Positions 1,792 through 44,430 of a stretch of DNA of 45,494 bases are shown piece by piece. This stretch comes from a virus. Both the position numbers and the translations under genes were made by a program. Position 1 is the stretch's first letter; each line of letters starts with the position of its first letter. The notes beneath the pieces were generated by a model. It worked only from the letters and a program-made list of their open reading frames with translations, made no database searches and was not told the origin of the DNA. The DNA is taken from positions 1-45,494 of the IMG/VR virus record IMGVR_UViG_3300042890_003113, one strand, 5' to 3'.

Positions 1792-2482
1792 CATTTAAGG
1801 CTTGCTTATATCGATCTTGCCAAAGAGCGCATGCGGCCGAGTGAGCATCCTCAAGTGGATGTAACCCAGGATCGGTTACACTAAATCCATGTTTATAACT
1901 CCAATCTAAAAAAGTTAATCCTTCAAAGGTTTGCAAAGGATCTTTAGTAAGATCTTGTAAAGTTTTAATATAGTCCGGAGCATGCCAGGTTGTGTCCCAC
2001 ATTTCAGCATCCATATATGTTTGTATACTAGGAACATCGATGTGTTTTAAAAATTGTTGTGTAGAGTAAATGGTTTGTAGTGTTCTAAACTTGTCCCATA
2101 ATGTACTGTATCCAGGATACTTTCCGTAAAATTCTAAAATCTTTTCAGCATCTTCTGCCCCAACCAATGGCGCTAACTTTGACGGGACACAGGTTAATCC
2201 CAATGTAGTCCATGTTTCCTGCTGTGGAATATAAAAATCCCAACGAGCACCCCATGTCCAATTAATTACAGCCAGCACATTATCACTGGGATTATTTGAA
2301 AAATATGTTAAAATTTGACGACTAATATTTTCGTTACCACAGCCCGGCACTGCGGTAGTTTCATAATCAACACCTAATTTCCGTGCGGCCTGTCCAATCC
2401 AACTTTGTTGTCCATCATTATTATTGGCAAGTTCGCTGCCAAAGACAAAGCTATCTCCAAAGCCAACTATTTTTGTTTTCAT
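1787..2482 (-). CDS. SGNH hydrolase-like protein
   Basis: This 231-aa protein has the full SGNH layout: VGFGDSFVFGS at residues 6-16 (block I, nucleophile Ser), PGCGNENI (blocks II/III with Gly and Asn), and DPGLHPLEDAHSAAC near the C-terminus carrying candidate catalytic Asp/His residues. No signal peptide or membrane segment is visible. It overlaps the upstream radical SAM gene by 4 nt (ATGA), so the two are probably co-translated. The upstream radical SAM and downstream SOD/SGNH genes suggest a common modification module, but the substrate cannot be read from the sequence. Confidence 0.75.
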   Translation of the reverse strand: MKTKIVGFGDSFVFGSELANNNDGQQSWIGQAARKLGVDYETTAVPGCGNENISRQILTYFSNNPSDNVLAVINWTWGARWDFYIPQQETWTTLGLTCVPSKLAPLVGAEDAEKILEFYGKYPGYSTLWDKFRTLQTIYSTQQFLKHIDVPSIQTYMDAEMWDTTWHAPDYIKTLQDLTKDPLQTFEGLTFLDWSYKHGFSVTDPGLHPLEDAHSAACALWQDRYKQALNV

Positions 2483-3624
2483 GCCTGTGCCTTATATAAA
2501 GTTAAATGATTTTCCTGTCTAATTTGGTCCAACGTTTGATTGTAAGATTGGCTACGATCCCAAAGTATTGAATTAAATTTAGCAGATTTAATTTGATTAA
2601 TTAGACCTGTTAACATATTTCTTTGTTCATTATCTAAATCCAAACTCAAACAAGATTCTAAATAGTCCACAGCTTGCGGGCGTAGTTCTTCTGACAGATT
2701 ATCTGCGGCTAACAAATAAGGACGTTGACAAACAAAAAATTGGTGTCGACAACCAAGATCGCCATGTCGACCAACAGGTGTAATGCTGAGTTGTTGCATC
2801 CGACGACCAAACTCTAACAAGGGTTTTAGCCCAAATATTGTCAAATTAGATACAACAGAATTTATGTCTAGACTGTTAGCGTGTTGTGCCAACCAAGATA
2901 CATTGCGTTCAATAACTGGCCAGTCTGACCCGTGCCTGACAATTTCGGCTGCCGACCCTACTGCGTCAATACTTACTGTCCAATGTAAATTTGGTAACTG
3001 TTCTGTAATTTCATACCAGAACTCATCTTGAAAACTTGCATTTGATGTTATCAACACTGCAATATCTTTATGATCCTGTTTGATTGTTTTAATAAGATCT
3101 CGCACACCAGGAATTACGGTAGGCTCACCACCAGTGAACATAATTCTTTTTAGTGACCCTAGGTTACACATAATCCAATCTATATTTGAATCAGTTACTG
3201 ATAGAGTTTTACTAGCAGGCGGCGCTCCTAAAAACTTTTGCAATTCTGGGTAATGATTAATTTCCTGTGTTATGCCGTGACTGAATGTTGGGCTACAACT
3301 ACGACATTTAAAATTGCAAATATTAACAGATCTAAAATCTATGAAGTCAAGCTGTGTGTTGGTAAAAATTTGATTATCATAATCTTGATTACTATTAGTC
3401 CTTAAGCTGGTGCCGTATGCCTGTTCTTGTTTGACACACCCTCCGCACACCGCTGGGGTATTTCCATTAAGTAAATCTTGTTGTAATTCTATTAGTTTTG
3501 GATGTGTGGACCATTCATCAAGGGTCACTTGATATCTTGGAGTCTGACAACAAGCCGCAATGCCTGTACTATCAACATAAGCATGTCTAAACGGCAGTGG
3601 ACAATACCAGTCTGACATGGTCAT
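2479..3624 (-). CDS. Radical SAM protein with N-terminal twitch-like domain (paralogue 1 of 5)
   Basis: The N-terminal ~75 residues carry a cysteine pattern (WYCPLPF, ACCQT, CGGC) like auxiliary-cluster twitch/SPASM domains. The core follows, with CNFKCRSC for the SAM-bound 4Fe-4S cluster and FTGGEPT for SAM binding. Length is 381 aa. Radical SAM enzymes use the cluster to cleave S-adenosylmethionine and start radical chemistry, often on peptides or sugars; the substrate here is unknown. The ATG overlaps the IF-1 stop codon and the 3' end overlaps an SGNH hydrolase gene. Four further paralogues follow at 20700, 27400, 31498 and 34090. Family call is firm; function is not. Confidence 0.9.
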
Positions 3625-20699: not shown

Positions 20700-21809
20700 T
20701 CATGCGAATCTTTCAGTTAGCCATTTCCAATACTGCCCAAACAACTGGTTAGATGTTTGTGCAGGATCAATGTGTGTTCTTCGAAAATATTCTGTCAAGT
20801 AATTATACTGCTCAAACAATTTTATGTCAACCAATATGTCAGAAGGTTTTAAAATATCTTGTACCAAATCTGGCAATACTGTGGAATCAATTTGCTGTTT
20901 GAATTGGGCCGGAATCAACCGAGCATCCAAGCAATCAGGATTGTTAAGTGCATGACATTGTATTATGTGATGCTTGCGTTTGGCCCAACTGAAAAAATCG
21001 GGTAAATCAAATATATTCAACACACTGACTACACTTAGGAATCGGTACGACACTTGATATTTTTGAATCAACTCCAAGTTTTCTAAAAATTTATGTTGGT
21101 CAAACCCTGCTCTTGGCACATGGTTAAACTCTGGTGTGGCATCCAAACTTATGTCAAAATGCAGTCGATCTGATGGTACATGTTCCAATAACCATATTAG
21201 AAATTTGTTGTTAGGAGGATTGAGATTGGTATTGATGCGTAATTGTCTAATTCTATCGCTGTTAAATTCTACCAACTTTTGCAATTGTTTGATTTGCATC
21301 AATGGTTCGCCACCTAACAATTTTACAGCTACTGTATTGGCTGGTTGTTGTTGGATGTATTGGTGTATTTGATCTATCCAATACTGATGATCCACAGTGT
21401 TTAATTTGATTTCAAAATTTTGGTTGGTTGACTGACTGACTTTTGGAAACAATCCGTCTTTGATAATGCTGTTTTGCCACTCACTACTGAATTTTGGACT
21501 GCAATAACTGCACATGTGATTGCAGGTATTATCAAAGAACAATTCAATCTGATCGCCTTCATTATCAAGTTTTTTTAATTGCCGATAAGATTGATGTCCT
21601 TGTGCTTCGTGTTTCCAACACACATTGCAAGATGGTATTTGATTGCCTTGCTCTAGTTGATTTTTTTCTTTATTCCAGTGTGCAGTAAGTTGATCAAAAT
21701 CCTTGTATTGTGTCAATGGGTCACTATAGGCCTTGCAACATGATGCAGTAGTTCCTAGATGTAAGAAAAAAAGTTTTTGGCGACCTTTAAGGTCACATGA
21801 TTTAGTCAT
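20700..21809 (-). CDS. Radical SAM protein with N-terminal twitch-like domain (paralogue 2 of 5)
   Basis: This 369-aa protein has the twitch-like Cys set near the N-terminus (TTASCCKAY, CNVCWKHE), then CNHMCSYC for the 4Fe-4S cluster and KLLGGEPLMQI. DISLDATPEF marks a later barrel strand. It is the most divergent of the five at the N-terminus. Clustered with small phage genes and a tRNA, it has no visible peptide substrate partner; substrate unknown. Confidence 0.9.
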   Translation of the reverse strand: MTKSCDLKGRQKLFFLHLGTTASCCKAYSDPLTQYKDFDQLTAHWNKEKNQLEQGNQIPSCNVCWKHEAQGHQSYRQLKKLDNEGDQIELFFDNTCNHMCSYCSPKFSSEWQNSIIKDGLFPKVSQSTNQNFEIKLNTVDHQYWIDQIHQYIQQQPANTVAVKLLGGEPLMQIKQLQKLVEFNSDRIRQLRINTNLNPPNNKFLIWLLEHVPSDRLHFDISLDATPEFNHVPRAGFDQHKFLENLELIQKYQVSYRFLSVVSVLNIFDLPDFFSWAKRKHHIIQCHALNNPDCLDARLIPAQFKQQIDSTVLPDLVQDILKPSDILVDIKLFEQYNYLTEYFRRTHIDPAQTSNQLFGQYWKWLTERFA

Positions 21810-27399: not shown

Positions 27400-28626
27400 T
27401 CACAAGTACACCCAGTGAGGTTCAAGTATGGTCCACCACTCGGGAAAAGTCTTACTAAAACTTTGATCCCGCAATTGATCTAGTTTTGTGGTAGCACGGC
27501 AAAACTTGGGCCACTCAACGTCGCAACCGGGAATGGTCTTTGATAGGAAACTTTTGATCTTTTGATCTTTTATACTATTGATTAACAGAGTCTTAACCGG
27601 GACAGGCAGGTGCCTAATATCATATTCAGGTGTGGTCACAATGTTTATGTTCACCGCAATGCCAAGGATTCGGTTAATGCTTTCCACAATTTGATCCACA
27701 TAAAATACATTGAGTGGGGTTATGGTCAATGAAATTCTAACAGTAACATTGCTATGTGGTCGGAACAATTCCACAAATCTTTTTGTATTTGCAATAGTCG
27801 ACTCAAAATCACCTTTGTGCCTGATGTATTCAAATTGCTCCGATTGCATGCTATCTATGCTGATGTTAAATCCCACCTGCTTGTAGTGTGTCAGTATTTT
27901 AACGTATTGCTCGTTGAGAATTGACGCATTGGTATGGAGATTCAAGGCCACATTCTTTGCCACGTCAGTGGTGACACCATGCTCTAGTACATCAAACATG
28001 GCCGGAACCAAGAAGGGCTCGCCACCGTAGATGTCGATGTATTCAAAATTTCCAATCCATTCTTTTAATGTGGGCCAAAATTCTTCATTGTTGCGACCAA
28101 AACTGTTGCGTATGGTTTCAAATGTCCGAGTGTATTCATTAAAAGTCAACGTGGTAGCCTGCCCAGTTTGATCTTCACTGTACCAACTGCTACTGCCAAG
28201 ATCCGATTTTTCTAATTCATGACCATCACTGTACCAACTGCTACTGGTCATGGGGTTACACATTCTGCAGGCAAAGTTACAGGTGTTGCCGGGTTTGATC
28301 ACCAACACACGAGGTTGTGTTTTTATTGCTTCCAAGTGACCAAACTTTCGGTTGTATTCCATTCTTGCCGATGTCCTACCAACGTCTTCTAAATCCCAAC
28401 ACGTCTGGCAACTGGCATGACGGATGCCGTGGTCCAGTGCCGTGGCAATCAATTTGCGGGTGTAACTTTTGAAGGCTGTTTTTAAAGGATGACTGTAAAC
28501 ACGTATAACTTCGTGGGAGTTATCTTTCCAACTTTCCTTGTTGAGATTACAACAACAATAATCTGCGTTGTTTTGCAACGCCATACCCATGTGAGTCATT
28601 ACGCAATAAGTGTTTGATTTTTCCAT
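27400..28626 (-). CDS. Radical SAM protein with N-terminal twitch-like domain (paralogue 3 of 5)
   Basis: This 408-aa protein has a twitch-like N-terminus with NADYCCCNLNKES and ASCQTCWDLED, then NTCNFACRMCNP (CxxxCxxC cluster site) and IDIYGGEPFLVP, with FNISIDSM in the barrel. It closely resembles the paralogue at 34090-35364 across the N-terminus (HASCQxCWD, GNTCNxxCRxCNP), so those two are recent duplicates. A TTAAATAC motif is 3 nt before ATG. Substrate unknown. Confidence 0.9.
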   Translation of the reverse strand: MEKSNTYCVMTHMGMALQNNADYCCCNLNKESWKDNSHEVIRVYSHPLKTAFKSYTRKLIATALDHGIRHASCQTCWDLEDVGRTSARMEYNRKFGHLEAIKTQPRVLVIKPGNTCNFACRMCNPMTSSSWYSDGHELEKSDLGSSSWYSEDQTGQATTLTFNEYTRTFETIRNSFGRNNEEFWPTLKEWIGNFEYIDIYGGEPFLVPAMFDVLEHGVTTDVAKNVALNLHTNASILNEQYVKILTHYKQVGFNISIDSMQSEQFEYIRHKGDFESTIANTKRFVELFRPHSNVTVRISLTITPLNVFYVDQIVESINRILGIAVNINIVTTPEYDIRHLPVPVKTLLINSIKDQKIKSFLSKTIPGCDVEWPKFCRATTKLDQLRDQSFSKTFPEWWTILEPHWVYL

Positions 28627-31085: not shown

Positions 31086-31508
31086 TTATTGATAAATCCA
31101 ACCTAAATTTAGTGTATTGTGCATCCATGTAAACACAGGCACAGAAAACTCCAATTGATAAACACCGTTCCACCCCAAGTAACCTTGCCCAGTCAATGGA
31201 GATGCTTTATTAGGGTAGTGTGGGGGATAATCGGGATAGTATATTCCTGCCCATATAAACTTCGGATCCGTTATTCCAAAGAAACCGATTTCTTTAACAA
31301 TCACCGCAGTAGAAATATCGTTGTCATCTTTTTTAAAGTGTTCAACTTTTAAACAACACTGGCCTGTTTTTGCAACAAAATCAAAATCAAAATCAGTTGT
31401 TTCTGTTAACTGTTGGATTCTTCCCCGGCCATCTACATCTACCTCAACCCAGGGCTCACCCACAGGTTCAAGTGTCACACGCATTGTTACCGGGTACTCA
31501 GTAGCCAT
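31086..31508 (-). CDS. Beta-rich protein coupled to radical SAM gene 4
   Basis: This 140-aa protein overlaps the upstream radical SAM gene by 11 nt. It begins [20 protein letters not shown] and contains CCLKVEHFKKDD, KFIWAGIYYPDYPPHYPNKA and LTGQGYLGWNGVYQLEFSVP, ending NLGWIYQ. It is beta-rich with many Trp/Tyr and two adjacent Cys. The strict pairing suggests it may be a partner or substrate of the enzyme, but this is inference from position. Confidence 0.7.
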   Translation of the reverse strand: MATEYPVTMRVTLEPVGEPWVEVDVDGRGRIQQLTETTDFDFDFVAKTGQCCLKVEHFKKDDNDISTAVIVKEIGFFGITDPKFIWAGIYYPDYPPHYPNKASPLTGQGYLGWNGVYQLEFSVPVFTWMHNTLNLGWIYQ

Positions 31509-32814
31509 GCAGATCCAATATATCAGTTAATTCTGGGTACAATGATCTAGCATCGTAACCGTATAGATTGTCCCAACGTCGGCACCAGGCAACCATGTCC
31601 TTTAAATGCTGTTCACTATTGGGCAACTGATCCTGTGTCAAAATGTTTAAGCATTGATCAATCTGACTTAAAATTGTGCGCGGCAATTGGTTGATGTCGC
31701 TTTCGTTATAGTCCACAGTATAGTCGTTGGTTAAGTTGTATTCGTGTATTAAGTTTTTATAATTGTCAATGTACAGATGCCGCACAGCCAATGGCAATAT
31801 CATTGGATTTAAAAAAATTGGATTTGTTACATTTAAATTTTTTACATTTATTTTATTGTCAAGGCAGTAACGCAACAAGGTATGATAAGAGCCAATGGTC
31901 AATGTACTGATAGCCGGTCTGGCTGTCACAGTTATATTTGATCTGTTGCAATGTGCAAGATATTGTTGTATATTTTTCAGTACCAACTGAGTATCAGTGC
32001 CCTGTCTCTGGTACGAGTTATGTTCGGTAATAGTTTCAATGCTTACTTCAATTCCCACACGGTTAAATTTCTTTAACTTGTTGATCAAACTTTCATTGAA
32101 TATGGTTCCGTTTGATACAAAACTAAAGTTTAAATCCGTGCGGCCATGTAGAATCATATGGTCAACAAACTCTTCAAATCTTGGTGTTAATAATGTCTCG
32201 CCGCCCATGAAATGAACATTATTGAGATCTTTTATATTGACCAGTTCGTTGAGCACACGAGTCCATACTGCTTTGTCACGAGTCCAGTCTGTTCCTACAT
32301 ATTGCTGTGCATTTGCATTTCCCCATTTAACTTCTTGCGCGGCAATAGTGCTACTGGCTTGAGGATGGCACATCTTACAAGCCAGGTTGCAATAGTTTCC
32401 CAAGTCAATGTGTAAGTCTATGGGCATTCCATCATAATCACCGTTGTTATTTTTACTAGATTCAAATTTATCGTAGCCAGGACTTTGCTCGTAACTGTTG
32501 GAGAAATTTGTTTTGGTAAAAATAACGCTCTTTTGATTGCATTTATGTCTGCGACTGGTGCCACTGATTCCTTGCTGATAGTAACAACGACTACAAAAAC
32601 TGACTGGTGAATCACTAAACATTGCCAGTCGAGCTTGCCGCATAGGTTCACTGTTAAACCATTCAGCAATGGTCATTTGAGAGACGTTATAAGTTTTGCC
32701 TAAATTGTCCGGGTACAGTTTGTGTGATTCTTGGCAACAAAAACCTAGACTACCATCCCAGTAGATCTGTAGTTCATACCAGGGACTAGTGCAAAAAATA
32801 TTTTTATTAGGCAC
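31498..32814 (-). CDS. Radical SAM protein with N-terminal twitch-like domain (paralogue 4 of 5)
   Basis: This 438-aa protein starts [20 protein letters not shown] from GTG 32814, which overlaps the end of clpP; a longer frame opens only at TTG 32850 inside clpP. Twitch-like Cys ([23 protein letters not shown]) precede CNLACKMC and [11 protein letters not shown], where Thr replaces Pro of GGEP. It is the longest paralogue, with an insertion around residues 95-140. Downstream overlap with a beta-rich 140-aa gene. Substrate unknown. Confidence 0.88.
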
Positions 32815-33430
32815 GTTTTTCAATAATTTTATCAGCAAGTCCAAAATCAACTGCTTGCTGTGCGCTTAAGAATGTATCAAACTTCATAGTTTCATACAGT
32901 TCTTCATAGGTCTTGTTGGCGGTGTTGTGCTTGACATACAGTTCGGTTAGACGTTTATTTATCCGTACGCTTTCTTCAAACGCACGTTTGCTATCTTCAA
33001 ACTGCAAGTCCTGCACATGTACAGATCCACGTGTGCCTGGGGTGCCGGAACTCACACGATGAATCATTGTACGTGCTTCTGGAAGTACCATGCGTTTGCC
33101 AACAGCGCCGGCCTGTGCCAACATTGATCCCATGCTGGCGGCCTGGCCCAATACAATGGTCTGCACATCGCATTTGATAAACTGCATGGTATCATAAATG
33201 GCCAGGCCTGCTGTAACAGCGCCACCAGGTGAGTTGATATAGAACGAAATATCTTTGTCAGGGTTTTCACTTTCCAAGAACAGCATCTGCGCCACAATCA
33301 AACTGGCTGAATGTTCGCTGACTTCTGTGTCCAACATGATCACACGGTCACGAAGCAAGCGGCTGTAGATATCGTAACTACGCTCGCCTTTGGCAGTTTG
33401 TTCTAGAACAATCGGTACTAAATTAGGCAT
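32807..33430 (-). CDS. clpP: ClpP-like serine protease
   Basis: This 207-aa S14-family protein aligns along its whole length: [50 protein letters not shown] with nucleophile Ser99, and [11 protein letters not shown] with His124. An insertion of about 12 residues lies before the third catalytic position. There [14 protein letters not shown] has Thr where E. coli ClpP has the catalytic Asp; Asp185 is nearby. ClpP forms a barrel protease with AAA+ unfoldases; the phage one may pair with host ClpX/ClpA or the second copy at 36989. Its promoter overlaps the divergent oxygenase start. Confidence 0.92.
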
Positions 33431-33497: not shown

Positions 33498-34151
33498 GAT
33501 ATTAAGTTTGAAATTTTTCCAGAAGACTATGCCTATTCCCGGGTTCAGACAACTTTTCCGTGGAGCCGAACAGAGTTAATAGCAGACTTTGAACAGGAGG
33601 ATTGGAAACCATACGGAGCCGAAACTGCTGTTAAACACGACGCTTGGACTGGCAAACGGTTTAAAGTGCATCGTCCCCGAAGCTCTAAGTTGCAACAAAT
33701 TTCTCAATTCTTCAGGCAGGATTCTGTAAAAGATTACGTCATTGAATGCCTGTATCGAGACAAACCTATCTTACAAATAAACTGGCAAATGTATCCTTGG
33801 CGCATGAGCACCAATACTGTGTTACATGCAGAATTTACAAAAGATTTGCCAGGCTTTGAAAACGGTATTCACTGCGACATGCGACGACTAGTAGGAACTG
33901 GTATGATATATCTGGCCGAGGGTGACGATCCAGCCTCAGCCAGTTGCTTTTATGATCATCCAGATCGTCACAACCCTCGTCGTGTCACCACCGGCTACGG
34001 CGCAGGGTGGGTACACAGCAACGATTGGAATACCTGGCACGATGGTTGGAATCGCACTGACAAAACACGCTATAGTATCTTGTTGGCTCTTACTTTGAAA
34101 CTGGAGAATCAACCACAAGCAACTGATCAAGCGGTGCAAACCACGGTGTAA
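33492..34151 (+). CDS. 2-oxoglutarate/Fe(II) oxygenase-like protein
   Basis: This 219-aa protein has a candidate HxD facial pair (GIHCDMRRLVGTGMIYLAEG), followed by GWVHSNDWNTWHDGWNRTDK then RYSILLALT, giving a distal His and 2OG-binding Arg. This is the 2OG-Fe(II) dioxygenase order; these are common in T4-like phages. An N-terminal aromatic segment precedes the core. The 3' 62 nt overlap the convergent radical SAM gene on the other strand. Substrate unknown; alternatives are other jelly-roll fold enzymes. Confidence 0.62.
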   Translation: MQDIKFEIFPEDYAYSRVQTTFPWSRTELIADFEQEDWKPYGAETAVKHDAWTGKRFKVHRPRSSKLQQISQFFRQDSVKDYVIECLYRDKPILQINWQMYPWRMSTNTVLHAEFTKDLPGFENGIHCDMRRLVGTGMIYLAEGDDPASASCFYDHPDRHNPRRVTTGYGAGWVHSNDWNTWHDGWNRTDKTRYSILLALTLKLENQPQATDQAVQTTV

Positions 34152-35364
34152 TTAGTTCTGCAAATTCAGGCACGGCTGTTTCAAAAGTTTGTCCACGGCT
34201 ACGATCAAGGCCGCGAGTGTAACGATGAAATTCCCGGAAGTGATGCTGTTGTCCTTCCATTGGTGTATTCAAAAAGTTCAACACAATTTCACAATGGTCT
34301 TTCCAGTAGCGTTGATGCCACGGCCCAATATCATCCCCTGTCACATACTTTGACAATTTATCAGTAATTGCGATTTTAACAGCATCGGGCAAACTTTTCA
34401 CACACAGCTGATATGGTAAGTGCAACATGTTAAAGTTAGTGCCCAGCCCTTTCTTTGCAAAGAAATCAAATATCTCATCCAGATAATACACATTCAAACT
34501 GTTGACAGTGATACACACGCTAAATTGAAAGTTTTTGTTTGTGCGTTGTGCCTGTAGGAATCGTTCAAGATTGGCGGAAACCAGATCCCAGGTACTAGAA
34601 TAGCGAACATATCCACACCTATCTTCAATGTCATCAATGCTGAGATCAAAATAAACTCGTTTAAATTGCTTTAACAAATTTTCTAACTCATCATTCCAGA
34701 CAGTGCCATTGGTGCTAAAATGTAGGTCTATGTTTTTTGCAGTGCCTTGATCCACAGCAGCCTGTAGCACGTCAAAGTTCTTTTTGATCAGCATGGGCTC
34801 TGCACCGTAGTAGTCAATGTACACTGCATTAGGCACCCACTTGCTCATGGTGTTCCAGAGGTCTTGATTGTTGTCGCTGTAACTGGCAGGAATTCTGCGC
34901 CAGCGTTTGAGATACTCTGGGTAAGAAACGCCTTCTGCGGGCTGTGCTGCCAATTCCCAATCTTCACGATACCATTGACTGGACACTTCTGGGTTACAGG
35001 TTCTGCATTTCATGTTGCAGGTGTTGCCCATTTTTAGGTCCAGTATTTGCGGTTGATCATCACGGTCAGTCACTGGATGATTCATGCTGTTGTGCCACTG
35101 TCTGCGTGACTTTTTGCCGGCGTGTTCATCGTCCCAGCAGGCCTGACAACTGGCATGCTCTTGATTGTTTTCCAACGATTCTTGTATTTCTCTGCGTGTA
35201 GGGCTTGTCCATGCTTGTTCTAACGTGTGGGTGTCTAGATATATCTGCTCACCCTGTGCATCTTCCAGGTATTTTCTACTGTGACAGCACAGATATGTTC
35301 TTCCAGAATTGTGCAGGCCCAGGCCTTTGTCGGCTAAAATACAGTATAAATTACTTTGTTTCAT
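34090..35364 (-). CDS. Radical SAM protein with N-terminal twitch-like domain (paralogue 5 of 5)
   Basis: This 424-aa protein has twitch-like Cys (YLCCHSR, ASCQACWDDEHAG), CNMKCRTC, and DYYGAEPMLIK, where the usual GGEP is GAEP. YFDLSIDDI follows. Closest to paralogue 3 (27400). The 3' end overlaps the oxygenase-like gene on the opposite strand by 62 nt, so their mRNAs are antisense over that stretch. Substrate unknown; the GAEP change may weaken SAM binding. Confidence 0.88.
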   Translation of the reverse strand: MKQSNLYCILADKGLGLHNSGRTYLCCHSRKYLEDAQGEQIYLDTHTLEQAWTSPTRREIQESLENNQEHASCQACWDDEHAGKKSRRQWHNSMNHPVTDRDDQPQILDLKMGNTCNMKCRTCNPEVSSQWYREDWELAAQPAEGVSYPEYLKRWRRIPASYSDNNQDLWNTMSKWVPNAVYIDYYGAEPMLIKKNFDVLQAAVDQGTAKNIDLHFSTNGTVWNDELENLLKQFKRVYFDLSIDDIEDRCGYVRYSSTWDLVSANLERFLQAQRTNKNFQFSVCITVNSLNVYYLDEIFDFFAKKGLGTNFNMLHLPYQLCVKSLPDAVKIAITDKLSKYVTGDDIGPWHQRYWKDHCEIVLNFLNTPMEGQQHHFREFHRYTRGLDRSRGQTFETAVPEFAELITPWFAPLDQLLVVDSPVSK

Positions 35365-42064: not shown

Positions 42065-42085
42065 GAAAGCCCCTTCCGGGGCTTG
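42065..42085 (-). terminator. Intrinsic terminator after pstS
   Basis: AAGCCCC/GGGGCTT with loop GGAA, followed on the minus strand by TCTATTT. It lies 8 nt after the pstS stop. Confidence 0.8.
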
Positions 42086-42092
42086 TTGTTGA

Positions 42093-43094
42093 TTACTTGA
42101 TCTGTGTCCAAACACGTTCACGAATCTGTTTTGTCAGTGCATCTGGCAATGGTACATAGTCCAAATCTACAGCATCTTTCTTGCCGTTCTTAAATGCCCA
42201 ATCAAAGAACTTTAGCACTTCATCACTGGTAGCTTTGTTGGCAGGGTTCTTGTACATGATGATGAAACTGGCTGAGCTTACTGGCCAAGCCGCAGGATTC
42301 TTTTGATCCACAATACTCAGGCCCATACCCGGAACACTGAACCAATCAGCACCATCTGCGGCAGCGGCAAATGTTAAGTCATCTGGACTGACATACCGGC
42401 CTGATTTATTTTGTAGTTGTAGGAATACCATGTTGTTCTTTTTAACATAAGCATACTCTACATAACCGATTGAACCTCGGATACGGTTCACATTGGCTGC
42501 AACACCTTCGTTGCCTTTGCCACCTACCGAGTTTGCCGCTGGCCATTTAACTGCGGCACCGCGACCCACACGCTGGAGCCACTCAGGACTAACAGTAGCA
42601 AGATAGTCTGTCCAGTTGAATGTTGTTCCTGATCCATCAGCACGGTGTACAATGGTGATAGGCTGATCTGGTAATTGTTTGCCTGGATTCAATGCTACAA
42701 GGCGAGGATCATTCCATTTAGAGATGTTGCCCATGAATACATCTGCCATAACAGGGCCAGTAATGCGTAGTTCACCTGGCTTAATGCCATCCAAGTTAAC
42801 AACAGGAACTGTGCCGCCAATGATGGCAGGGAATTGAACTTGAGCATTCTTATCTAAGTTCTCCCCGCTTACCGGAGCATCGGTTGCACCAAAGTCTACA
42901 GTCTTTGCGTTGATTTGTCTAATGCCACCTGAACTACCAATACTCTGATAGTTTAAGCTGACCCCTGTGGCTTTCTTATATCCTTCGGCCCATTTAGAAT
43001 AGATAGGCATTGGAAATGTAGCACCAGCACCTGTAATGTCTGCGTGTGCTGATACGGTTACCGCGGCTAATAAAATTGCTAATAGTTTGTTCAC
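42093..43094 (-). CDS. pstS: Phosphate-binding protein PstS
   Basis: This 333-aa periplasmic protein has signal peptide MNKLLAILLAAVTVSAHA, then ITGAGATFPMPIYSKWAEGY, YQSIGSSGGIRQINAKTVDF and GATDAPVS, IVHRADGSGTTFNWTDYL, the PstS phosphate-binding loops. PstS binds phosphate for the PstCAB ABC transporter. Start is GTG 43094 with AAGGAG upstream. A PHO box and a TTAAATAA late motif precede it. Such pstS genes are known in cyanophages, where PhoB control was shown; here this is inferred. Confidence 0.95.
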   Translation of the reverse strand: MNKLLAILLAAVTVSAHADITGAGATFPMPIYSKWAEGYKKATGVSLNYQSIGSSGGIRQINAKTVDFGATDAPVSGENLDKNAQVQFPAIIGGTVPVVNLDGIKPGELRITGPVMADVFMGNISKWNDPRLVALNPGKQLPDQPITIVHRADGSGTTFNWTDYLATVSPEWLQRVGRGAAVKWPAANSVGGKGNEGVAANVNRIRGSIGYVEYAYVKKNNMVFLQLQNKSGRYVSPDDLTFAAAADGADWFSVPGMGLSIVDQKNPAAWPVSSASFIIMYKNPANKATSDEVLKFFDWAFKNGKKDAVDLDYVPLPDALTKQIRERVWTQIK

Positions 43095-43116
43095 TGTGTT
43101 CTCCTTGTTGTGACAA

Positions 43117-43126
43117 ATTTATTTAA
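43117..43126 (-). promoter_or_regulatory. Late-promoter-like and -10-like motif before pstS
   Basis: Minus-strand TTAAATAAAT lies 22 nt before GTG 43094. TTAAAT also sits 10 bp after the PHO box, where a PhoB-activated -10 would be, so both modes are possible. Confidence 0.5.
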
Positions 43127-43136
43127 GGAGAATCAT

Positions 43137-43154
43137 GTTACAGTTTTGTTACAA
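43137..43154 (-). promoter_or_regulatory. PHO box (PhoB binding site) upstream of pstS
   Basis: Two 7-bp direct repeats on the minus strand, TTGTAAC and CTGTAAC, separated by AAAA, match the layout of the E. coli PHO box (CTGTCAT, 4 bp, CTGTCAY). The 11-bp period is exact. It overlaps the end of the upstream gene. TTAAAT lies 10 bp downstream as a -10. Confidence 0.65.
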
Positions 43155-43436
43155 AATCATGCGTAGCAAACCCACTGTGTCAATTGTGGTCAACAGTATA
43201 TAGTTAGCCAGCATGCCAAAAGATTTCCTAGTATAACTAGCCCAAGCATAGAGGGCGCAACCAAGGATCCAAATAGGATACAACGTAAGTAAAGGGGGGT
43301 TGGGGACGGTAACTGCCATACTAATACTACACCCAATACTAATAGCCCAAGCAAGCAACTCAATAGCAAAGCGAATCCTGTTAGACTTAAAATCATCTCG
43401 TATCCAGTCAAATGTGTTAAGCAATATATCGTTCAT
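43149..43436 (-). CDS. Conserved-type phage membrane protein
   Basis: This 95-aa protein has hydrophobic spans near residues 22-40, 47-65 and 73-92 and contains FDWIRDDFKSNRIRFAIELL, AWAISIGCSISMAVTVPNPP and LLTLYPIWILGCALYAWASY. The IRFxxELxAW ... PNPPLLxLYP pattern is strongly conserved-looking in T4-like phages. ATG 43436 overlaps the uvsE end by 20 nt; the longer frame runs into uvsE. Function unknown. Confidence 0.75.
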   Translation of the reverse strand: MNDILLNTFDWIRDDFKSNRIRFAIELLAWAISIGCSISMAVTVPNPPLLTLYPIWILGCALYAWASYTRKSFGMLANYILLTTIDTVGLLRMIL

Positions 43437-44430
43437 AAACCTGTTCACTGGCCAAATTTTTGCCTTTGGCTTCGCATTGGATATCAAATTGATCAGCAAA
43501 GGTCAATGCCCAATCAGTCACAGCGGAATTCCAATAAAAGTCACTGTGGGCTCGCAGTTTTTGTTTTTTAAAGCCCTGTGCCAACAATGCAGCCATGTCC
43601 GGCAACACCGTGGCGTCATGCCCCACCAGATAGTCTTCTCTACTGACTGAATAATGGAGTGCAGGCCTTACTCCACGCCAGGAATCAATCACACGCGAAA
43701 CTCTATCGTCGGAGGGTTGAATGTAGTCTCCTGTACGGATCCAGTGATGGTGTATATCAAGCACGAGGGCACAGTCTTTGGCAAGTTCAAGACTTGAGTC
43801 GATTCCCCAGGCATTTTCGTCGTTTTCGATGGTGATGCAGTTTCTTGCTTCGGGGCTAAGACGCTGGAGGGCAGAGCGAATACCCTCGGGGCCTTGTTTA
43901 CCCGAGATGTGTACATTGATTTTAAAGTCTTGAAAAGTTTTGCCGTAGCCCATCCACCTGACCATATCTGCATGATATTCAAACTCCTGTATGCTTCTAT
44001 TTACGATGCCAGGATTCTCACTGGCCAACACACAGAACTGTCCAGGGTGAAAACTCAATCTAACATCCAGTCTACGAGCAGTTTCACCAATGGGTGCAAA
44101 GATCTTGGCACAATGGTCTTGAATCTCCGGACGTTGCCACCAGTCAATCCAACTGGGCTCAGTGTAGCCTTGTAGCATTTCGCTACCTAATCGTACCATA
44201 CGTCGGCCTTCGGGCAAGGTAGCCACACGTTCAATCATCCGCACAGCCGCTGAGGTGTTGTGATTCATGATATCCCACTGGCGTTGTTCAGCTTCGTCAG
44301 CGTGTTCACGAAGCCATCGCATGGTGGTTGATCTGCCGTTTAGGTCACGGTCCACTGCATTGACTTTCATGCCGCCACATTCTGAGGGGTCATTAAGCCA
44401 CTTGCAACAAAAGCCAATTCGTTTATTCAT
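43417..44430 (-). CDS. uvsE: UV damage endonuclease UvsE/UVDE
   Basis: This 337-aa TIM-barrel repair enzyme contains RIGFCCKWL, LRLSFHPGQFC-like DVRLSFHPGQFCVLASENPG, NCITIENDENAWG, CALVLDIHHHWI, RPALHYSVSRED, and KLRAHSDFYWNSAV, with several His and Glu residues for Mn/Zn binding. UVDE nicks 5' of UV photoproducts. In phages it probably repairs sunlight damage. It is leaderless: ATG 44430 is 6 nt after TATAAT. Confidence 0.94.
   Translation of the reverse strand: MNKRIGFCCKWLNDPSECGGMKVNAVDRDLNGRSTTMRWLREHADEAEQRQWDIMNHNTSAAVRMIERVATLPEGRRMVRLGSEMLQGYTEPSWIDWWQRPEIQDHCAKIFAPIGETARRLDVRLSFHPGQFCVLASENPGIVNRSIQEFEYHADMVRWMGYGKTFQDFKINVHISGKQGPEGIRSALQRLSPEARNCITIENDENAWGIDSSLELAKDCALVLDIHHHWIRTGDYIQPSDDRVSRVIDSWRGVRPALHYSVSREDYLVGHDATVLPDMAALLAQGFKKQKLRAHSDFYWNSAVTDWALTFADQFDIQCEAKGKNLASEQVYERYIA

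Follow-up and report, generated by a model that had tools for sequence, protein, structure and literature searches.

A predicted PHO box in fixed register with a T4 late-type promoter motif ahead of phage pstS genes

The phage pstS gene in the stretch of viral DNA analyzed here (the window, whose 45,494 bases make up an entire IMG/VR virus record) is preceded by a well-conserved predicted PHO box, and this box belongs to an apparently new promoter variant in which it stands a fixed 11 nt ahead of the TAAATA core of an apparent T4-type late promoter. We consider it probable that the two elements form a hybrid promoter that would be read twice, by PhoB and sigma-70 under phosphate starvation and by a gp55-type phage polymerase late in infection. 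The comparative evidence for the composite promoter, drawn from the sequences of viral relatives, is strong.

The pstS promoter and its gene in the window

All features of this section lie on the minus strand. As the original prediction had described, two 7-bp repeats with a 4-bp spacer, TTGTAAC-AAAA-CTGTAAC, are present (43137 to 43154) and would occupy positions -40 to -23. TTAAAT, likewise confirmed, follows 10 nt after the box (43126 to 43121); it could alternatively act as a weak sigma-70 -10 element, one without the A at -11 that sigma-70 favors. Overlapping it is TAAATA (43120 to 43125), the core of a T4-late-type -10 motif that reads CTTAAATA at this site and lies 11 nt downstream of the box; the length of this spacer (43126 to 43136) is invariant among 72 pstS loci. 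Transcription is predicted to start at 43114, as deduced from the T at -7 in the register of T4 late promoters, which gives pstS a predicted leader of 20 nt with the Shine-Dalgarno sequence AAGGAG (43101 to 43106) ahead of a GTG start (43094). A hairpin with a T-rich tail, the putative intrinsic terminator AAGCCCCGGAAGGGGCTT-TCTATTTG (42067 to 42084; folding z-score -3.3), lies directly behind the gene, and pstS is therefore probably a single-gene unit.

The gene behind the box was correctly named as a phage pstS; it is intact (42093 to 43094) and encodes a periplasmic phosphate-binding protein of 333 amino acids that scores above the cutoffs of PstS family profiles (399 bits against 339 for the NCBIfam equivalog NF008171, and 370 bits against 205 for TIGR00975). 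It also matches PHROG 5385, a phosphate transporter subunit, and its best PDB match is the PstS structure 5wnn (E 6e-109), with E. coli 1ixh matched as well; by inspection, its N terminus, MNKLLAILLAAVTVSAHA-D, resembles a signal peptide. The protein is of Burkholderiales type, with 71 to 78% identity to Burkholderiales proteins, and its Limnohabitans-type sequence points to a freshwater life of the phage. Campylobacter phages A11a and A18a, considered as relatives by their PstS proteins (51%), were set aside, as these records are unannotated and possibly contain host DNA.

Upstream of the promoter, a small membrane protein reading frame (43149 to 43433) has its TAA stop within the first PHO half-site, and a gene for a UvdE-type UV endonuclease (43417 to 44430) lies just upstream of the pstS unit. 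A sigma-70-like sequence, TTGACA-16-CATGAT (43183 to 43156), was rejected as a promoter candidate; it lies within the upstream reading frame, and this flank is not conserved in relatives.

Taken alone, the PHO box of the window is weak evidence and does not exceed chance. It is the only match in the window to CTGTAACN4CTGTAAC with at most one mismatch, and with up to three mismatches there are 4 matches against 4.5 expected. Scored with a host-box matrix, the site comes second in the window, and an equal or better one occurs in 193 of 200 shuffled windows; we place little reliance on this ranking, as the matrix penalizes TGTAA because the host boxes were chosen with a pattern requiring TGTCA. 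The box fits the E. coli consensus at 15 of 18 positions; the E. coli PHO box is given as CTGTCAT-A(AT)A(TA)-CTGT(CA)A(CT), with A permitted in the second half-site (PMC3465305). One paper cautions against relying on Pho boxes predicted in phages unless their binding has been tested (PMC10976474). The full composite of half-sites, 11 nt and TAAATA occurs once in the window and in none of 40 shuffles, with an analytic expectation of 4e-5.

Conservation of the composite and its link to phosphate genes

A search of viral contigs yielded 80 loci with pstS genes 83 to 100% identical to that of the window, and 77 sequences, the window among them, had a full-length pstS match and sufficient upstream DNA for comparison. 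The box stands exactly 11 nt ahead of TAAATA in 72 of these 77 loci. An 81.6 kb twin contig has the same promoter and encodes a PstS identical to that of the window. Upstream of the box the relatives diverge, with different genes or terminators in this place. Among 27 upstream contexts (representatives in which no more than half of the 60 nt ahead of the box is shared), information per position rose from about 0.16 bit in the 60-nt flank to about 1.5 bits within the half-sites and 1.8 bits within TAAATA; part of this signal is fixed by the pattern used to recognize the box, and the unfiltered alignment of the relatives shows the same picture. The fifth base of the half-sites co-varies, so that a box tends to have either TGTAA or TGTCA twice (16 A/A, 7 C/C and 1 mixed among the distinct boxes).

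We also scanned viral contigs for the composite irrespective of the gene behind it, comparing spacings of 10, 11, 12 and 14 nt. At 11 nt, at least 127 matches were found in at least 120 stretches, and among the matches listed at least 97 of 127 precede phosphate genes. Again among the matches listed, the gene behind the composite is pstS in 54 cases, a member of another PstS family in 2, a metallophosphoesterase of the LpxH/PlcP kind in 40, a Na/Pi cotransporter in 1, a membrane protein whose resemblance to PiT transporters is by eye only in 4, and an uncharacterized coiled-coil protein in 6. Among the altered spacings, which served as controls, 10 nt gave 7 phosphate genes in 41 stretches, and 12 nt (0 of 53) and 14 nt (0 of 42) gave none of these families. 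A sigma-70 version, box-N10-TATAAT, was found in 105 stretches, again ahead of pstS, PlcP-like, PiT-like and Na/Pi genes and in other viruses; the phage group of the window pairs the box with TAAATA in place of TATAAT. The box is therefore a marker of phosphate genes across several kinds of virus. The T at -7 falls 16 nt past the box in the TAAATA composites, in the viral N10-TATAAT version and in host pstS promoters alike.

The metallophosphoesterase adjoins pstS in large relatives (L569, G006:278046-278921, minus strand; L568, G015:133892-134731, plus strand; and L570) and often has a PHO box and TAAATA of its own. It is related to LpxH, scores far under the LpxH cutoffs (45 against 134 bits) and is possibly a PlcP-type phospholipase of the lipid remodeling that accompanies phosphate starvation. 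Neither the window nor the 81.6 kb twin yielded such a gene.

The late-type motif, the large relatives and the host

The large relatives are T4-related jumbo phages, and two of them, G006 and G015, together encode homologues of T4 gp4, 13, 17, 18, 20, 21, 23, 43, 44, 46, 47 and 55. A gp55 homologue is present in all four searched records of about 250 kb or more, and that of one relative matches the PHROG late sigma models (PHROG 12791) with an E value of 1e-74. The window itself has no gp55, and T4 core virion genes were identified neither in it nor in its 81.6 kb twin; we place it in the jumbo group because the PstS proteins of these relatives are 84 to 92% identical to its own. In the contig G003 (341,990 bp), the start of pstS recurs at the opposite end, pointing to a complete genome that is either circular or terminally redundant.

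No hexamer is more strongly enriched before genes than TAAATA in the gp55-encoding relative G006 of 320 kb (40 against 3.2 expected). The motif occurs within about 60 nt ahead of 8 of 16 late T4 homologues as against 0 of 15 early ones (P 0.0016). These results support the late-motif half of the original reading, which had taken the -10-like sequence to be a T4 late-type motif as well. A second promoter class, TGCTATAATACTTGT, with an extended -10 and TATAAT, comes next and is also strongly enriched before genes in G006 (L168 to L183) and is probably its early promoter.

The PHO box is not a general part of these late-type promoters. Both half-sites are in register at only 3 of 112 TAAATA promoters of two relatives (two ahead of pstS and one ahead of the PlcP-like gene), and the remaining 109 have no PHO box. 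The sigma-70 base T at -12 is found in 44 of 81 composites compared with 15 of 112 other late promoters (P 2e-9, a significance inflated by shared ancestry, which the statistic ignores, and obtained with a control set from two genomes). This enrichment fits a promoter that is read in two ways.

Nine phage records yielded no OmpR/PhoB-type DNA-binding domain, which makes host PhoB the most likely regulator. In Burkholderiales, pstS promoters have TGTCAC half-sites followed by N10 and a TANAGT-type -10, with the T at -7 located 16 nt past the box in 69 of 75. A TGTAAY-type box followed by N10-TANANT was found only four times in about 540 bacterial genomes (one among 399 genomes of Burkholderiales, three among 143 from the wider class); one of the four lies ahead of a pstS-like and one ahead of a phoB-like gene, as read from translations. 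These four TGTAAY promoters did not single out a host for the phage, and the nearest pstS genes of cells have TGTCAC boxes. By this comparison, the TGTAAC half-sites of the phage do not match the host PhoB preference. The PHO box half of the original prediction is supported by the conservation in divergent contexts, the co-variation of the half-sites, the register shared with Burkholderiales, the phosphate genes recovered in unbiased scans and the existence of TGTAAY-type bacterial promoters.

How the promoter may be read

We propose that a host-type PHO box takes the place of the sigma-70 -35 region, with a late-type -10 that belongs to the phage family itself downstream of it. Under phosphate starvation, host PhoB in its phosphorylated form would bind the box and drive pstS through host RNA polymerase and sigma-70, for which TTAAAT would be a poor, activator-dependent -10. 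Later in infection, a gp55-type sigma factor would use the same TAAATA as a late promoter irrespective of the phosphate state. The PstS made in this way might supply the host Pst transporter with phosphate-binding protein when the demand of phage DNA synthesis for phosphate is at its peak. PhoB binding, the double reading, its timing and this benefit are what we infer from the computed features of the promoter.

The register of the box, equal to that of host promoters, would also suit a plain host-style PHO promoter, with PhoB and sigma-70 as its sole readers and TAAATA as an AT-rich -10 that has no late role, as would the T enriched at -12 and the box-N10-TATAAT promoters ahead of the same kinds of genes in other viruses. 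We think this unlikely, because TAAATA, including the A at -6, is present at all 72 loci (the search pattern required it, yet the unfiltered alignment agrees), as opposed to TANAGT in hosts, and because the hexamer leads the upstream motifs of a relative in frequency and stands ahead of late homologues; that genome also has early TATAAT promoters, a type not employed here. Alternatively, RNA polymerase in its gp55 form might be a direct target of PhoB, which would give the phage a late promoter under the control of a transcription factor; the constant spacing of 11 nt, phosphate genes being few or absent at 10, 12 and 14 nt, and the pairing of the box with TAAATA and not TATAAT in this phage group are in keeping with such a contact. 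However, PhoB is known to activate through region 4 of sigma-70, a region known to be missing from gp55, and double reading accounts for the same spacing, which makes direct action on the gp55 polymerase quite improbable in our estimation. That host PhoB acts on the late polymerase, so that a host nutrient signal switches a T4-type late promoter, and that these jumbo phages control their own small Pho regulon in this manner, with pstS, the PlcP-like gene and others as its members, is a speculation that we regard as doubtful.

A captured host pstS could have brought along its promoter, since the gene is of Burkholderiales type, 71 to 78% identical, and host genes carry such boxes; a mere leftover with no present role is nevertheless very improbable, given that box, spacing and TAAATA stayed the same as the flanks changed, that the half-sites co-vary, that the -10 has been swapped for a phage motif and that a separate gene, the PlcP-like one, has its own copy of the box. 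Still less credence is due to the idea that the match arose by chance or serves some other regulator; the single site is indeed unexceptional in the window, but its conservation, the association with phosphate genes and the bacterial TGTAAY-type promoters ahead of pstS-like and phoB-like genes all argue against it.

PHO control of phage pstS is already known from cyanophages, and the use of the host phosphate sensor by phages has been documented mainly for marine cyanophages. The pstS genes of cyanophages P-SSM2 and S-SM1 are known to respond to host PhoBR (Zeng and Chisholm 2012, as cited in PMC10976474), and promoters have been described on the flanks of pstS in cyanophages (Sullivan et al. 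2010, PMC3037559). Like the phage of the window, these are T4-related phages with pstS that are thought to exploit host PhoB in starved hosts. In contrast, their PstS proteins are only 36 to 39% identical to the Burkholderiales-type PstS of the window, cyanobacterial Pho boxes are PyTTAAPyPyT/A repeats whereas the window has a TGTMAY-type box locked 11 nt from a late-type motif, there is no TAAATA in the 130 nt ahead of three cyanophage pstS genes, and the likely host group is another one.

The pstS promoters of Burkholderiales hosts (Limnohabitans, Hydrogenophaga and Acidovorax) are similar in that their half-sites are 11 bp apart, the distance from box to T at -7 is the same and the box fronts a closely related pstS; they differ by TGTCAC, N10 and TANAGT, where the window has TGTAAC, N11 and TAAATA. 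The window site shares with PHO promoters its TGTMAY half-sites 4 bp apart, a box that replaces the -35 element at a fixed distance, and a phosphate gene downstream. With T4 late promoters (TATAAATA, gp55) it has in common a TAAATA core in the same place, a gp55 homologue in the large relatives of the phage group and a motif that precedes virion but not early genes. T4 late promoters do without a -35 element and rely on the sliding clamp instead (T4 gene 45), whereas the window has a PHO box in this position. The nearest isolated relatives by the G006 major capsid protein (65.6%) are Pseudomonas jumbo phages of the PA5oct/Paride type, and no Pseudomonas phage is among the 92 phage records that match the window PstS.

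What appears to be new is that such control extends to non-cyanobacterial phages, that the box is joined to a late-type promoter at a constant distance and that further phosphate genes share the arrangement; within the collection searched, no paper joining phage, plcP and auxiliary metabolic gene was found. A large group of non-cyanobacterial jumbo phages would thus follow what is apparently the same strategy with a different molecular solution, a composite that occurs almost exclusively ahead of phosphate genes, and the tie of a T4-type late promoter to host nutrition becomes testable. The composite motif may further be used as a probe for unknown phosphate genes in viruses.

Several protein families were noted behind these promoters. 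The coiled-coil family, which has no Pfam, NCBIfam or PHROG match, has a PHO box and TAAATA promoter in six contigs (L242:2530, plus strand; L271, L296, L259, L221 and L229). The membrane protein IANDSVQTLGTWIASN, with no family match and the look of a PiT phosphate transporter by eye, occurs behind PHO boxes at L236, L245, L253 and L312 and also at L483, L514 and L537. In other viruses, small secreted-looking proteins (PYVEYKYKS..., about 95 amino acids, resembling outer membrane barrels) recur behind PHO box-N10-TATAAT (L458, L466, L502, L542, L554 and others). The window also encodes, within its 45 kb, five radical SAM proteins, all on the minus strand (2479 to 3624, 20700 to 21809, 27400 to 28626, 31498 to 32850 and 34090 to 35364), two of them with SPASM-domain matches.
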